Shown in pieces: positions 20,514 through 55,409 of a stretch of 64,000 nt of DNA; position 1 is the first letter of the stretch; each line of letters opens with the position of its first letter. The translations under genes were made by a program, and so were the position numbers. The notes under the pieces are model-generated. The model saw only the letters and a program-made list of their open reading frames with translations, was not told the origin of the DNA and searched no databases. The stretch is from Calditrichota bacterium (lineage in GTDB: Bacteria; Zhuqueibacterota; Zhuqueibacteria; Zhuqueibacterales; Geothermadaptataceae), in contig QQUE01000013.1 in NCBI GenBank assembly GCA_008501765.1, positions 62,001 through 126,000 of the forward strand, in the 5' to 3' direction.

Positions 20514-20573
20514 GCAGAAGAACGTGTTCAGAAAAATGCAGTTGGCCATTGGCTGCGAGCTTTTAGATAAAAG

Positions 20574-20671
20574 ACCAATTGCCAATTGCCAATTGCCAAT
20601 AGCTAAAAGCCAAAAGCCAAAAGCCAAAAGCCAAAAGCCAAAAGCCAAAAGCCAAAAGCCAAAAGCTAATC
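20574..20671. repeat. Heptamer tandem repeat tract
   Basis: Four GCCAATT-like heptamers (20574-20601), one GCTAAAA, eight GCCAAAA (20609-20664) and a closing GCTAATC. It lies between two genes. The minus strand therefore reads as an open but artefactual FWLLAFG-type peptide. Confidence 0.9.
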
Positions 20672-20705: not shown

Positions 20706-21887
20706 ATGATTGCAAAACGCAGCCTGTTTTTTCTTGCCAATGCATTTATTTTTATCCCGTCTTTCCTTTCAGCCCAGTCGCATTTTAAAAAAGAATCCAT
20801 TTTTCCGACACAAAATAAACACGTGCACAGTAGCAGTATTGTCGAGGCTGCAAACGGGGATTTGCTGGTCTGCTGGTTTTACGGCTCCGGTGAGCGCACG
20901 GCGGATGACGTGCTCGTGCAGGGAGCGCGGTTGAAAAAAGGCGCCACGCAATGGTCTCCGGTATTTTTAATGGCCGACACGCCGGGATTTCCCGATTGCA
21001 ATCCGATGTTGTTTATCGATCCAAATCAAAAACTGTGGTTATTTTGGATTGTTGTGCAGGCCAATCGCTGGGAGCAGTCTATCTTGAAATATAAAACGTC
21101 TGTCGATTATCTCGGCGACGGCCCACCAAAGTGGTCGTGGCAGGATGTCATTCATCTAAAGCCAGGCGAAAAATTCGCTCAAACTGTAAAAAACGATTTT
21201 AAAAAATATGCCGATGAAGGCATGTGGGCCGAGTACGCGCCTGCCTATATCGACTTGCTCATCGAAGCAGCGAAAGATCCGGTGAAGCGGCAGATCGGCT
21301 GGATGACGCGCTGTCACCCGACAGTTTTACCGAGTGGCCGCATTTTATTGCCGCTTTATTCCGATGGGTACTGCCTCGGCCTCGCAGCGATCAGCGATGA
21401 CGCCGGACAAACCTGGCGCGCAAGCGGGCCGATGGTAGGGCTGGGGCTCAATCAACCGACGATTGTGCGCAAAAAAGACGGCAATCTCGTCGCTTATTTG
21501 CGCGATGAGGGCGTTCTGCCGCAACGTGTTTTGCAGAGCATTTCAACCGACGATGGCGAAACCTGGTCGTACGCCACCGATACCGAAATCCCAAATCCAG
21601 CATCCAGCCTCGAGGTTATCGTTTTGAAAAATAGCAACTGGTTGATGATTTTTAATGATACCGAAGACGGCCGCCACAGTTTGGCAGCTGCGCTTTCTGA
21701 TGATGAAGGCAAAACCTGGAAATGGAAAAAGCACATTGCCTTAACCGAGTTTGGCAAAGCTTCCTTTTCATATCCGTCGGTGATTCAAACAAAGGATGGA
21801 ATGCTACATGTGACTTATTCATTTACCGATGGCACAAACAAAACCATTAAACACGTCACTTTCGATGAAAAATGGGTTAAAAACTAG
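20706..21887 (+). CDS. Secreted BNR/Asp-box sialidase-like protein
   Basis: 393 residues with AAGGAA upstream and a signal peptide ending FLSAQ. It is a six-bladed propeller type with Asp boxes SDDAGQTW, STDDGETW and SDDEGKTW, matching the BNR_2 exo-alpha-sialidase-like family. Other landmarks are CNPMLFIDPNQKLWLFW and RCHPTVLPSGRILLPLY. True sialidase activity would need the arginine triad and nucleophilic Tyr, which I cannot confirm by eye; many family members act on other sugars. Exported, possibly acting on host or environmental glycans. A secreted phosphoesterase follows. Confidence 0.8.
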   Translation: MIAKRSLFFLANAFIFIPSFLSAQSHFKKESIFPTQNKHVHSSSIVEAANGDLLVCWFYGSGERTADDVLVQGARLKKGATQWSPVFLMADTPGFPDCNPMLFIDPNQKLWLFWIVVQANRWEQSILKYKTSVDYLGDGPPKWSWQDVIHLKPGEKFAQTVKNDFKKYADEGMWAEYAPAYIDLLIEAAKDPVKRQIGWMTRCHPTVLPSGRILLPLYSDGYCLGLAAISDDAGQTWRASGPMVGLGLNQPTIVRKKDGNLVAYLRDEGVLPQRVLQSISTDDGETWSYATDTEIPNPASSLEVIVLKNSNWLMIFNDTEDGRHSLAAALSDDEGKTWKWKKHIALTEFGKASFSYPSVIQTKDGMLHVTYSFTDGTNKTIKHVTFDEKWVKN

Positions 21888-23812: not shown

Positions 23813-24168
23813 AATTTGATGGCTGTATCACGGAATACAATTAATATATCCCCGCTCCTTGTGGGCGGCGGTGATGTGAATATTCCAGGCCACAAGGGCC
23901 TGGGCTACAGTTTGAACTTAAATTTTCGATATACGGATCAATTCGATTTTTTTCGATAAATCATCGGTGAAAAAAAATCGTCACCCCGCCCCTCGTGGAC
24001 GGTGGAGATGTGAATTATCCAGGCCACAAGGGCCTGGGCTACAATTTGAACTAAAATTTTTGATATACAGATCAATTCGATTTTTTTCGATAAATCATCG
24101 GTGAAATAATAATCGTAGCCCCGCCCCTTGTGGGCGGATAAATGAGTTTATTTTAAAAGGGGATCAAA
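23813..24168. repeat. REP/BIME cluster upstream of the RAYT gene
   Basis: Two inverted hairpin types alternate. Type B is CCAGGCCACAAGGGCCTGG followed by GCTAC, at 23885-23908 and 24019-24042 (134-bp period). Type A is GTAG plus CCCCGCCCCTTGTGGGCGG, best at 24115-24137, with degenerate copies near 23850 and 23980. Read on the minus strand, B also begins GTAG. An AT-rich spacer with TCGATTTTTTTCGA lies between B and A. Confidence 0.85.
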
Positions 24169-24657
24169 ATGTCCACAACACGTGCATGGTTTCCGCCGAA
24201 ACCACGGAATCACCGCTTGCCAATTGAAACATATTCCAGACCAGATATCGTTTGGTTTTTCACAATTACCTGTTATAAACGACTAAAACCGTTCATTCGT
24301 AAAGAATTGAATCAAATGGTTATCGATGAAATGCAATCAATTCGAACCGGGTGTCGTTGTGAAATTTTTGTCTATTGTCTCATGCCGGATCATCTGCATT
24401 ATCTGATAAAACCGCGTGAACAAGATGCGTCTGTCCTTGTTTTTCACGATCGATTCAAGGGTCGAACAACCAATTTGAGTTGGAACTATGGCTGGAATGG
24501 AAAGTTGTGGCAGCCACGATCATTTGATCATGGATTGCGTCGGGAAGAACAATTTAATGATGTGGCAGCCTATATATTGGAGAATCCCGTGCGGAGTAAT
24601 TTGGTCAAACGGATCGAAGATTGGCCGTGGAGCGGGGTGATGGATGAATGGATGTGA
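24169..24657 (+). CDS. rayT: REP-associated tyrosine transposase (RAYT, IS200/IS605-like Y1)
   Basis: 162 residues with AAGGGG upstream. The HuH motif is in CLMPDHLHYLIKP; the catalytic tyrosine is likely in DVAAYILENPVRSNLV, a typical RAYT ending. Length fits a single-domain Y1 HUH nuclease. It has no terminal IS ends but sits inside GTAG-headed hairpin repeats on both sides, the hallmark of a domesticated TnpA_REP that acts on REP elements. The TGA stop lies within repeat sequence shared with other units (ATGTGAATTATCCAGG). It probably mobilised the 146-bp array at 52.9 kb. Confidence 0.9.
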   Translation: MSTTRAWFPPKPRNHRLPIETYSRPDIVWFFTITCYKRLKPFIRKELNQMVIDEMQSIRTGCRCEIFVYCLMPDHLHYLIKPREQDASVLVFHDRFKGRTTNLSWNYGWNGKLWQPRSFDHGLRREEQFNDVAAYILENPVRSNLVKRIEDWPWSGVMDEWM

Positions 24658-24830
24658 ATTATCCAGGCCACAAGGGCCTGGGCTACAATTTGAATTAAAA
24701 TTTTTGATATGCAGATCAATTCGATTTTTTTCGATAAATCATCGATGAAAAAGAATTCGTAGTCCCGCCCCTTGTGGGCGGCGGAGATGTTAATATTCCA
24801 GGCCACAAGGGCCTGGGCTACGTGGTAGTA
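24658..24830. repeat. REP/BIME cluster downstream of the RAYT gene
   Basis: Type B hairpins at 24663-24686 and 24798-24821 (135-bp period) and a type A hairpin with GTAG head at 24759-24781. The spacer between them matches the upstream spacer (TCAATTCGATTTTTTTCGAT). Confidence 0.88.
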
Positions 24831-50639: not shown

Positions 50640-52907
50640 ATGCAAAAAATGATACTTCCAATTTCTTGTCTCTGTTTTATTCTTCTGACTGCATGCGCCG
50701 AAAAAAACACCCGGCAACCCGTGTACAAAGACGTGCCCTATTTGCAGGATTACGCTATCAAATTCTACGCAGATAGTTCGATTGGTGAGCTAAAAAAAGT
50801 GGCGACCGATCGTAATGGCGTGGTGCAGGTGTTGGCTTCCAATGGATTATACCGGCCCAATAATGGACATTTTCAATATCCGGGTAAGCTCAGCCAGGAT
50901 CGATCCTATCGCCCGATGGCAGATAAAGAAATCCGCGATATCGCTGCCTACAAAAACCAGTTTGTCTATCTCGATGAAGTGGCTGTTTTTAGCAATGCCT
51001 GGGCGGGAAAACTCTTTTCCCGGCACGGATTGTCAACAGCGACACAATTCTGTGGCGGCCCGGAATTTGCATTTTTGCTCGCAAATGAAACTAAGCTATT
51101 TTATGTGAAAGATTCAAAATTACAGTGGCAGGGGAATACGCAAAATGGTGAAATTCTTGCGATAAAATACAATGAAACTGCACAGCGGTTTTATATTCTC
51201 ACAGAAAAAGCCGTTTATTCATTTTTCCCCAAAAAGGAAGAATTGATGCTGTTATTCGAAGGGGAAAAATTGACCTGTTTTGAAATCGCTGCAGATAGGA
51301 AAAACCTCGTTATTGGCACTTTGGACGGATATTTTAGCCTTGATGCTGGTGGTAGAATTCAAGTTGATATTGAGAACAAACTTCCCTGGCCCGAGCTGAC
51401 ATGCATCACAGAAATTGATGGCCGACTGTGGTTCGGTTCTACAAAAGGTGCTTTCATGCTGCGCGACGATGGCAAATTCAATTATTATTTTGGCGAGCGT
51501 TGGCTTCCGGGAAAAATAGTAAAACATATTTCCGCCGGCCCGGAAATTTCTGTTTTAATTTTGACCGACAAAGGATTGGGGCAAATTTGCTTCAAAAAAA
51601 TGACGCTGGAAGAAAAGGCGATGATTTACGAAAAACAGGTGCGGCAGCGGCAAATACGCTACGGTATCAACAGCCAGCTCTCCCGCCTTGAAAATCATGA
51701 TTTATCCACCACTCAAAACCGTGTGGCCGACAGCGATAATTTATGGACAGGCATGTATCTCGGCAGCCAGCTTTTTCGCTACCTTGCAACCGGATCAGAA
51801 GAAGCTAAAGAGAATTGTTATGAAGCTTTTGAGGCTATGGAACGCATGCACGAAATTAACGGCATCGAAGGATTATTTGGCCGCTCTTTTGAGCGCCGGG
51901 GTTACCACGAATTCCGGCAAGAATTTCGGGATTATGTCAATCATTACTGGTATGAAGGTTATCAGGGCACCGTCAGTTGGCGCCATGCCGATGATCCTGA
52001 ATGGGATTGGCGCGCTTCTGCCAGCAGCGATCAGACTGTGGGGCAGATTTTCGCTTTGACACTGATTGCTGAATACATTGACGATGATGATTGGCGTGGC
52101 CGGGCGATCAAACTTTTGGATGGCCTGATGAGCTATATTGTTGAGAATGACTTGTGCCTGATCGATTACAATGGCAAACCTTCTCTTTGGGGACGATGGA
52201 ATCCAGAATATGTCAATCGATTCGAAACGATGATTGGCGATCGAAAAATTTGCTCTTCCAATATAATCGCTTTTCTGCAGACGGCTTATAAATTTACCGG
52301 GAAGGAAATCTTTAAAAATAAAGCCTTTGAGTTGCTGAATGAACACGGTTATCTGGAAAATCTCATGCGCCCGTTTGCTGAAATAGGGCCGGCTCCGGCG
52401 GGCGCCGATGGCTGGAGCGCTTTGCTCTCGGAAGAGTGGAACCATTCTGATGATGAGATGTATTTTCTCGCTTATTGGGGGTTATATCCTTACGCATTTA
52501 ACGATTCTTTGCAGGAAAAATACCGCACCGCTATCAAAGACCACTGGCAGTGGGAACGTCCTGAAAAAAATGCACTGTGGAATTTTTGTTACGCCATGAC
52601 GGGTGCAACGGAATTCGATCTCGATGCATCTATTTGGCATTTAAAAGAATTTCCTTTGGATATGATTCAGTTCGAAGTGGAAAACAGCCACCGGAAGGAC
52701 ATTGAGTTCGTGGAATCAAATTTCTGGGGGCAAACAACCTCGGAAGTGCTGCCGCCGGATGAACGACCAGAGCTCAAACACAACCGAAGTCTTTTCAAAC
52801 TCGATGCAGGGGACCGGCACAGTGAACTCAGCGCTGGAGATACATTTTTGCTGCCCTATTGGATGGGACGATTTTTGGGAGTGATTAGCGCCCCGGTGGG
52901 GGAATAG
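50640..52907 (+). CDS. Lipoprotein with beta-propeller-like and alpha/alpha-barrel-like domains
   Basis: 755 residues. The signal peptide ends in the lipobox LLTAC, so it is a lipoprotein. The N-terminal half (about 30-330) has repeated short strands with GTLDGYF and LWFGSTKGAFML turns, like two-component-sensor-type propellers. The C-terminal half (about 370-740) is helical with WTGMYLGSQLFRYLATGS and DWRASASSDQTVGQIF, reminiscent of (alpha/alpha)6 glycosidase or epimerase barrels. Together with the downstream secreted hydrolases it suggests glycan handling. Its last codons lie in the first unit of the 146-bp repeat array. Confidence 0.75.
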   Translation: MQKMILPISCLCFILLTACAEKNTRQPVYKDVPYLQDYAIKFYADSSIGELKKVATDRNGVVQVLASNGLYRPNNGHFQYPGKLSQDRSYRPMADKEIRDIAAYKNQFVYLDEVAVFSNAWAGKLFSRHGLSTATQFCGGPEFAFLLANETKLFYVKDSKLQWQGNTQNGEILAIKYNETAQRFYILTEKAVYSFFPKKEELMLLFEGEKLTCFEIAADRKNLVIGTLDGYFSLDAGGRIQVDIENKLPWPELTCITEIDGRLWFGSTKGAFMLRDDGKFNYYFGERWLPGKIVKHISAGPEISVLILTDKGLGQICFKKMTLEEKAMIYEKQVRQRQIRYGINSQLSRLENHDLSTTQNRVADSDNLWTGMYLGSQLFRYLATGSEEAKENCYEAFEAMERMHEINGIEGLFGRSFERRGYHEFRQEFRDYVNHYWYEGYQGTVSWRHADDPEWDWRASASSDQTVGQIFALTLIAEYIDDDDWRGRAIKLLDGLMSYIVENDLCLIDYNGKPSLWGRWNPEYVNRFETMIGDRKICSSNIIAFLQTAYKFTGKEIFKNKAFELLNEHGYLENLMRPFAEIGPAPAGADGWSALLSEEWNHSDDEMYFLAYWGLYPYAFNDSLQEKYRTAIKDHWQWERPEKNALWNFCYAMTGATEFDLDASIWHLKEFPLDMIQFEVENSHRKDIEFVESNFWGQTTSEVLPPDERPELKHNRSLFKLDAGDRHSELSAGDTFLLPYWMGRFLGVISAPVGE

Positions 52908-53914
52908 GGTCAAATAGTCTGTGATTTCCAGGCCACAAGGGCCTGGGCTACGAATACCAATATCTCTGAAATGTAGTCTGCCCCCTTGTGGGGCGGTGTG
53001 GAATGTTAATCCGGCCACACTGGCCGGGGCACCAATTTCGAGTGGGGGAATAGGGATAAATAGTCTATGATTTCCAGGCCACAAGGGCCTGGGCTACGAA
53101 TACCAATATCTCTGAAATGTAGCCTGCCCCCTTGTGGGGCGGCGTGGAATGTTAATCCGGCCACACTGGCCGGGGCACCAATTTCGAGTGGGGGAATAGG
53201 GACAAATAGTCTTTGATTTCCAGGCCACAAGGGCCTGGGCTACGAATTCCGATATCTTTGAAATGTAGTCTGCCCCCTTGTGGGGCGGTGTGGAATGTTA
53301 ATCCGGCCACACTGGCCGGGGCACCAATTTCGAGTGGGGGAATAGGGACAAATAGTCTTTGATTTCCAGGCCACAAGGGCCTGGGCTACGAATTCCGATA
53401 TCTTTGAAATGTAGTCTGCCCCCTTGTGGGGCGGTGTGGAATGTTAATCCGGCCACACTGGCCGGGGCACCAATTTCGAGTGGGGGAATAGGGACAAATA
53501 GTCTTTGATTTCCAGGCCACAAGGGCCTGGGCTACGAATTCCGATATCTTTGAAATGTAGTCTGCCCCCTTGTGGGGCGGTGTGGAATGTTAATCCGGCC
53601 ACACTGGCCGGGGCACCAATCTCGAGTGGCGGAATAGGGATAAATAGTCTATGATTTCCAGGCCACAAGGGCCTGGGCTACGAATTCCGATATCTTTGAA
53701 ATGTAGTCTGCCCCCTTGTGGGGCGGTGTGGAATGTTAATCCGGCCACAATGGCCGGGGCACCAATTTCGAGTGGGGGAATAGGGACAAATAGTCTTTGA
53801 TTTCCAGGCCACAAGGGCCTGGGCTACGAATTCCGATATCTCTGAAATGTAGTCTGCCCCCTTGTGGGGCGGCGTGGAATGTTAATCCGGCCACAATAGC
53901 CGGGGCACCAATTT
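52896..53914. repeat. Seven-copy 146-bp tandem array of compound REP hairpins
   Basis: Seven units of 146 bp; type B hairpins start at 52928, 53074, 53220, 53366, 53512, 53658 and 53804. Each unit has B (CCAGGCCACAAGGGCCTGG-GCTAC, reverse of GTAG-headed), A (GTAG-TCT-GCCCCCTTGTGGGGC-GG) and C (CCGGCCACACTGGCCGG-GGCAC, reverse of GTGC-headed). A and B are the same hairpin types found around the RAYT gene. The middle units are almost identical, the outer ones differ by a few bases. The first unit contains the end and stop of the lipoprotein gene. Confidence 0.95.
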
Positions 53915-53941
53915 GTAATTTCAAACGAACGGCAGCCTGCC

Positions 53942-55246
53942 TTATTTTTCGATAAAAATTTCTACACCCTTTTCATTAACACCGGAAAAAAGGGCATAAA
54001 CCAATCCATTTTCATCAACGGCGGCCTCTGTTTCGCTGTGCTCGGGATTGGTAAAACTCCAGCCTGTGATATAGTCACCATTGTTGTTAAATTTCATTAT
54101 GCTGATTTTTTTTCCGTGTTCACGCTGCACAACTCCTTGAGAACCCGTGATACTTCGCACGAGCAAATAAACATTGCCCCAGCGGTCTCCGGTAATGTTA
54201 TGAAAATACACAGGCCCATCCGGCGGATCACCATGCGCGAATTGCATAAGCAGGTGCCCGTCCGGTGTAAATTTTTGTGTTGGACCGTAATAGCTGGTCA
54301 CAAATACGTCGCCACTGGGATCGACGCTGATGCCGTGCGGCGCATTAAATTCGCCGGGATTCATATTTTCGTAGACGAATCCTTCGCTGAAAGCGTGGGA
54401 AAATTCACCGGTGGCGCTGTAAACATTGACGCGCATATTGTCAACATCGGTGATAAATAACCGTTGTTTATGATCAAAACCAATGCCGTGGGAGCGGAGT
54501 ATTTGTCCCGGGCCTCTGCCTTTATCACCAAAAATTCGCAGGAATTCACCCTCGTGATTAAAAAACTGAATTCGCGGTTTATCTCCCTTGCTGTCGGTTA
54601 CACAAATATTACCGTCTGCATCACTTTTAACCTCGCGTGGTTCTTTAAAATATCCATTTGCTCCACCGGGACCCTTGCCAATTTCACCGAGAAATTTACC
54701 ATCAGAATTATAGCGAAAAACGCGGGATGCTGTTTGATCGGCAATTAAAATATTCCCATTTTTATCGAGCCCAATGCCGTGCGGAGATCGAAGATGCGTA
54801 TCAGAATCGCCTGATTTCTCAGACCAAATTTTTAGCGATTTGTAAACTGGCGGATCATCCCCAATTATGACCGTCGCATACAATCGGCTGTTTGCCGCTT
54901 CTGCGACTTGAGCGCCGATATGAATTTCATTCGGCACCGGCGCCTTTTGCGGGGCTTTGTAAACGCCATCGGAATCTATGGTGCCAAATTCATCTGTGCC
55001 GCCCGGGACGTCATTCACCGTCCAGATGGTCTTTTCCGGGGAACGTGCGGCCATGAGACGGGTGGCCAGCATCACAACTTTAAATTGTTTTTGCTGCAAT
55101 AAATGTAAATTTACCACCGAGGGTTTTATAATTGCGCGGCCGTGAATAGGTTGGCTTTGTGCGAGCAGGGAAGAGATTGAAATTGAAACCAAAAATACCA
55201 GCGGGAGAATCCATCGAACTATTTGATTAAAAATAAAGCTTTTCAT
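53942..55246 (-). CDS. Secreted NHL-repeat six-bladed propeller protein
   Basis: 434 residues from the ATG at 55246 with AAAGGAG upstream; an upstream in-frame ATG at 55309 is not preferred. A long signal peptide (IFNQIVRWILPLVFLVSISI to SLLAQ) is followed by an Ig-like domain (about 30-130, WTVNDVPGGTDEFG) and NHL repeats: SPHGIGLDKNGNILIADQTA, EPREVKSDADGNICVTDSKG, SHGIGFDHKQRLFITDVDNM and APHGISVDPSGDVFVTSYYG. Propellers of this kind bind sugars or proteins, some have lyase activity. It is in a minus-strand run with the two hydrolase-like genes upstream. Confidence 0.88.
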   Translation of the reverse strand: MKSFIFNQIVRWILPLVFLVSISISSLLAQSQPIHGRAIIKPSVVNLHLLQQKQFKVVMLATRLMAARSPEKTIWTVNDVPGGTDEFGTIDSDGVYKAPQKAPVPNEIHIGAQVAEAANSRLYATVIIGDDPPVYKSLKIWSEKSGDSDTHLRSPHGIGLDKNGNILIADQTASRVFRYNSDGKFLGEIGKGPGGANGYFKEPREVKSDADGNICVTDSKGDKPRIQFFNHEGEFLRIFGDKGRGPGQILRSHGIGFDHKQRLFITDVDNMRVNVYSATGEFSHAFSEGFVYENMNPGEFNAPHGISVDPSGDVFVTSYYGPTQKFTPDGHLLMQFAHGDPPDGPVYFHNITGDRWGNVYLLVRSITGSQGVVQREHGKKISIMKFNNNGDYITGWSFTNPEHSETEAAVDENGLVYALFSGVNEKGVEIFIEK

Positions 55247-55409
55247 GCAGATTTTCTCCTTTAATTTATTCTCTAATTTTTGGTATTTGTTTATCCTGAT
55301 ATCTGCCACTGATAGACACAGATCAAACTCGGATCATTTAATTATAAAAAAAATCCGTGTTCAATCAGTGAAAATCTGTGGCGAAAAATTAGTTAACGTT
55401 TCTGTTCTT

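Follow-up and report, generated by a model that had tools for sequence, protein, structure and literature searches.

A seven-unit tandem array of GTAG-type REPs occupies the gap between two convergent genes in the stretch of DNA that was analysed (64,000 nucleotides, hereafter the window), which comes from a KSB1-class bacterium. It is very likely that this array is a BIME, in which REPs of a family served by a RAYT (REP-associated tyrosine transposase) landed between the two genes and were then amplified in place. The array carries REPs of the family found on both sides of a RAYT gene in the same window, each of its units opens with a copy of the last codons of the gene upstream, and the corresponding gap in a genome of the same genus holds no array.

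Structure of the array and origin of its unit

The features of the array and its two flanking genes are as follows, in window coordinates:

50640–52907, + strand: upstream gene, 755 aa, putative lipoprotein with no Pfam family; the gene-end piece was copied from it
52896–53914, no strand: tandem array of seven units (146 bp; last unit 143 bp), from TRF and unit comparison
52896–52907, + strand: GTGGGGGAATAG, 12 bp shared by the upstream gene, as its four final codons (V G E stop), and by unit 1, as its opening; from the ends of array-free homologues
52928–52951, − strand: REP A of unit 1, an inverted REP with its GTAG head on the − strand; recurs every 146 bp
52973–52996, + strand: REP B of unit 1, with its GTAG head on the + strand; recurs every 146 bp
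53011–53033, − strand: hairpin C of unit 1, a decayed A-type REP with a GGTG head in place of GTAG, from comparison of B-linker-C with the RAYT-side B-linker-A
53942–55309, − strand: convergent downstream gene, 455 aa, NHL repeats; its G002 ortholog lies in the same place (63% identity)

For the interval 52896–53914, TRF gave a period of 146 bp, 7.0 copies, 97% matches, 0% indels and a score of 1891, confirming the seven-unit, 146-bp array proposed in a preliminary description of this DNA. Units 1 to 6 measure 146 bp, and unit 7, which ends in CACCAATTT, measures 143 bp. Twelve of the 143 columns shared by all units are variable; units 3 and 4 are identical, and there is at most one base of difference among units 3, 4 and 5. 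Within a unit the order is the gene-end piece with about 20 nt of downstream DNA, A, 21 nt, B, 13–14 nt, C and AATTTCGA, after which the next unit begins. A and B alternate regularly, with gaps of 21 nt and 77 nt across six intervals, and C forms a third, A-oriented arm; in its alternating REP orientation and regular spacing the array has the organisation of a BIME. A three-nucleotide CGA at the unit junctions is accounted for by neither flank, and no clear microhomology was found there.

The start of unit 1 had been placed inside the last codons of the upstream gene, and the array had been proposed to have grown from that gene's 3' end. Both statements hold for the gene at 50640–52907. Its 755-aa product, whose N-terminus resembles a lipoprotein signal, ends in V-G-E-stop, and copies of GTGGGGGAATAG open all later units, with one change in the copy of unit 6. 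Two homologues that are followed by no array, L044 from a KSB1 relative (72% identity) and L052 from Spirosoma, both end in ISAPVGK and a stop. Because these array-free homologues have the same C-terminal residues, GTGGGGGAATAG is, judged by sequence comparison, copied gene sequence and not a landed repeat that became the gene end. The left end of the unit thus lies inside the gene and not at a GTAG head.

The REP family and its transposase

REPs A and B share a plan of 24 nt, consisting of GTAG, 1 nt, a 7-bp stem, a CTTGT loop and the second half of the stem. The stems are CCAGGCC/GGCCTGG and CTGCCCC/GGGGCGG, either perfect or with one wobble, and both REPs fall within the definition of GTAG-type REPs (20–40 bp palindromes headed by a conserved GTAG). 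In a set of 35 distinct REP sequences that includes two forms of C, pairing holds in 90.6% of stem cells. Changes on both sides were counted in 57 cells, whereas shuffles gave 19.7 (0 of 500) and slid controls no more than 14. A and B are one covarying hairpin family.

The palindrome is kept in hairpin C, with a GGTG head instead of GTAG and with a loop that departs from CTTGT (ATTGT in units 6 and 7, AGTGT in units 1–5). An alignment pairs the segment B-linker-C with the B-linker-A found directly after the RAYT gene, the linker ATGTTAAT being common to both, and the similarity between A and C was equalled by 1 of 20000 palindrome-preserving shuffles. By virtue of this alignment, C is evidently an A-type REP that has lost its former GTAG head, and the three-hairpin unit is then evidently an inverted REP followed by a head-out REP pair in which one arm is dead. 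The preliminary count of three hairpins per unit is accordingly right as a count of palindromes, two of them the REPs A and B, and wrong in treating C as an independent hairpin. The possibility that C was the gene's original terminator hairpin was considered and rejected on the same alignment and shuffle result. Apart from one weak 85% stretch, no C-like sequence was found elsewhere in the host genome. B-linker-A with a linker like ATGTTAAT is present at the RAYT gene and in L137, and as B-linker-C in the array; head-in REP pairs of about 23 nt occur just as often.

The RAYT gene and the REPs beside it lie in the same window:

23850–24138, no strand: BIME upstream of the RAYT gene, 134-bp period, 2.1 copies, with A and B REPs, from TRF and REP search
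24169–24657, + strand: RAYT, 162 aa, from NF047646, PDB 4er8 and Pfam Y1_Tnp
24663–24821, no strand: REPs A, B and A downstream of the RAYT gene; B-linker-A is the intact counterpart of B-linker-C

The RAYT scored 107.5 bits against NF047646 (NCBI curated cut-off 80) and matched TnpAREP of PDB entry 4er8 with E=2.1e-10, the HLH and Y..NPV motifs being aligned, and it has the domain of a Y1/HUH transposase with HUH-type and tyrosine motifs. A and B REPs are found on both sides of the gene, and among the four Y1 transposase genes of the host genome it is the only one that A/B REPs adjoin. The three further Y1 transposase genes, at L110 (contig C6), L111 (C10) and L113 (C4), have no A/B-family REPs beside them. 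Hairpins A and B had earlier been said to match those flanking a RAYT gene about 28 kb away; the distance is right and A matches exactly, whereas B is a variant, GTAGTCTGCCCCCTTGTGGGGCGG in the array and GTAGTCCCGCCCCTTGTGGGCGG at the RAYT gene. Taken together, the sequence matches support the assignment of the array REPs to the RAYT at 24169–24657.

RAYTs 58–61% identical to this one are encoded in G012 and G013, which belong to another family of the same order. They lie near GTAG hairpins whose stems differ but whose loop is mostly CTTGT, as in the host; in G013 such hairpins recur at about 165 bp beside the RAYT gene. This is the pattern that co-evolution of RAYTs and REPs would give.

Other arrays in the host genome

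A pattern search of the host genome returned 51 A-type REPs on at least nine contigs (reversed control, 0), in a census by pattern and BLAST searches in which degenerate copies may be missed. In gammaproteobacteria REP copies usually number over 100, and the host genome is below that. Nineteen regions covering 20 REP loci were examined. The REPs are dispersed over about 20 loci, nearly all outside long ORFs, and about 13 of the 20 are tandem arrays (L150 being uncertain), with units mostly of 80 to 166 bp in 2 to 7 copies. For 12 of 13 arrays a gene 3' end is no more than about 75 bp away, a count that comes from mechanical ORF calls with no formal null, most intergenic gaps having a 3' end nearby. 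The array had been called unusual and its closeness to its own RAYT notable. With about 12 further arrays of the same REP family in the genome, and with literature precedents for REP clusters with flanks, the first statement is not borne out; nearness to the RAYT also weighs little, because arrays sit on other contigs too.

The spacers are private to each array. A query of eight joined spacers matched only their own arrays, plus one gene stretch beside the L136 array, and the reading of the spacers as dispersed repeats was rejected on this result. The 146-bp unit is likewise private to its locus, and its absence from a RAYT-carrying relative, previously proposed as a refutation, is not an apt one.

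Coding sequence is captured at a second locus. L134 (host contig C8, 2548–3678) is a seven-copy REP array with units of about 165 bp and two unit kinds interspersed; each unit includes about 71 nt from the end of the neighbouring TPR gene's coding sequence (ending in DHPSTQTVQRNLQSLLGKIKGGK and a stop), and the last copy is the gene itself. Higher-order periods are seen in other arrays, 218 bp in L141 and 234 bp in L140. At L136 (host contig C6, 2825–3248) a spacer matches a stretch in the adjacent gene about 85 bp past the array end, so the captured DNA is not just the sequence directly adjoining the array. L150 (host contig C14, 2078–2319) has a 50-bp unit in about five copies, each with only half a B-type REP (AGGGGGCGGACTAC), and this seems to be a tandem array grown from half a hairpin. 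The window also contains a heptanucleotide repeat, AAAAGCC in about 14 copies (20569–20666), between two + strand genes; it ends about 40 bp before the gene start at 20706, and variation in its length could shift the spacing upstream of that gene.

Array-free sites in the same genus

In G002, a genome of the same genus, orthologues of both flanking genes bracket the gap (upstream, 81% identity over the part present; downstream, 63%). The gap there contains one head-out REP pair of another family (GTAGTCCAGAGCTTGCTCTG ... CAGAGCAAGCTCTGGACTAC; L153, contig C583, 1300–1358) and no array. This second GTAG family (CAGAGCAAGCTCTGGACTAC) often forms head-out pairs and is common to all three genomes of the genus, with 11 matches in the host genome on contigs C3, C6, C8, C9 and C12. 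At two other array loci, no array follows the orthologous genes (87–88% identical) in same-genus genomes. In a search of 60 genomes, the A-type REP was found only in the host genome and in G002, the latter with 9 matches. The RAYT was not found in G002, whose genome is 67% complete, and neither the A-type REP nor the RAYT was found in G001, of the same genus and 97% complete.

Origin of the array

The RAYT would first have spread REPs through the genome, and one A...B-linker-A cluster would have come to rest immediately past the 755-aa gene's stop codon. A block running from the gene's last 12 bp, recognisable as such in every unit, through the REP cluster would then have been tandemly duplicated together with this neighbouring DNA, probably through slippage or misalignment that the hairpins promoted during replication. 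The seven units, and the shuffled variants seen among them, could subsequently have arisen by gene conversion or unequal exchange from one unit to another, and in parallel the second A arm would have decayed into C. The variant columns do not pass the four-gamete test: columns 16 and 26 are shared by units 2 and 6, columns 61 and 64 by units 1 and 2. This failure and the higher-order periods of other arrays point to exchange between units. Any effect on the cell is probably modest and would come from hairpins repeated through the 3' regions of the two convergent mRNAs.

The same captured flanks could arise if the RAYT made arrays directly, by cutting a single-stranded REP and joining its end to a neighbouring site, such that REP and flank, gene ends included, were copied in tandem and each private unit represented one transposase event. 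E. coli TnpAREP does cut and rejoin REPs as single strands, at CT sites that lie to either the 5' or the 3' side and in some cases at a distance (PMC8266576). The host RAYT retains the HLH and Y..NPV motifs, and REP arrays adjoin the related RAYTs of G012 and G013 too. However, unit ends stand at no fixed distance from the GTAG head, one lying in the gene here and another inside the TPR gene in L134, which favours general slippage over units made by the transposase, and the four-gamete failure fits ordinary exchange. Direct synthesis by the RAYT is distinctly unlikely. It is a little less unlikely that selection keeps the array as a 3' element, a bidirectional barrier stabilising or terminating both convergent mRNAs more strongly as units are added. 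The position between convergent genes and the closeness of 12 of 13 arrays to gene 3' ends agree with such a role, and mRNA stabilisation and termination appear as proposed REP roles in the GTAG survey (PMC3733652). Against this, no intrinsic terminator was found in the gap, and the unit's RNA fold (+ strand) is only moderately better than shuffles (z −1.68; as DNA on the − strand, z −2.87). REPs near 3' ends are moreover usual in many genomes with no need of locus-specific selection (PMC3733652), and the same gene ends occur in same-genus genomes without arrays.

An assembly artefact, with a true locus of one, few or another number of units, is very improbable. Short reads could not count units 3, 4 and 5, which differ by at most one base, but the twelve variable columns form an ordered pattern along the array, the genome is assembled in 21 contigs for 5.9 Mb, and arrays with private units stand at about 12 other loci. 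The usual assembly error at repeats is collapse, not inflation, which also counts against an artefact. We give almost no credence to an element of another kind, whether a structured RNA family, a CRISPR array or a coding repeat, as might be suggested by regular tandem repeats with hairpins and by short ORFs of 74 aa that open on the − strand of the array. A search of 52500–54500 against Rfam at E values up to 1 gave no match, and the array's spacers are repeated and not unique as in a CRISPR. As three does not divide the unit length of 146, no frame continues between units, and the covariation of the REPs and their link to the RAYT speak against all three.

Comparison with known systems

The amplification of REP clusters with flanking DNA is already described in the literature, and the array, read as a BIME amplified in place, is a clear example of a known process. 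In P. fluorescens SBW25, 16 tandem clusters of nearly identical REP pairs include their flanks, and a second mechanism was called for to account for local amplification of REP clusters (Bertels and Rainey 2011, PMC3116915). In two of the host arrays the flank that was copied can be recognised as coding sequence, and in all arrays tested it is private, which allows the limits of the duplicated block to be drawn; since the same-genus genomes supply array-free comparison sites, the lineage can be used as a natural experiment. A well-formed RAYT/REP/BIME system is also extended here to a KSB1-class bacterium; within a partial coverage of the literature, no papers naming both RAYT and candidate division KSB1 were found.

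The closest likeness is to the REPIN clusters of SBW25 (PMC3116915), which are tandem REP pairs with flanks and of which one lies beside each RAYT. The host arrays are longer, reaching seven units, whereas the largest ordered REPIN cluster of SBW25 has four REPINs. Arrays also make up most of the REP loci in the host, the unit of the present array has an extra inverted REP and a decayed one, and the captured flank is recognisable coding sequence. The 2013 survey of GTAG and CGTC palindromes (PMC3733652) describes large clusters of GTAG-family REPs, with GTAG-tagged palindromes and REPs near gene 3' ends as in the host, which differs in belonging to another phylum-level lineage and in the stems and CTTGT loop of its own REPs. 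In E. coli, BIME-2 at the RAYT gene yafM consists of tandem units of two opposite REPs, and two REP variants flank yafM, with BIMEs to either side of it (Nunvar et al. 2010, PMC2817692). The E. coli REP stem is bulged, whereas the host stems are perfect or have one wobble and the host units are private to each locus. What the present system adds to these precedents is its lineage, a REP set dominated by arrays, and recognisable coding flanks with array-free comparison sites.
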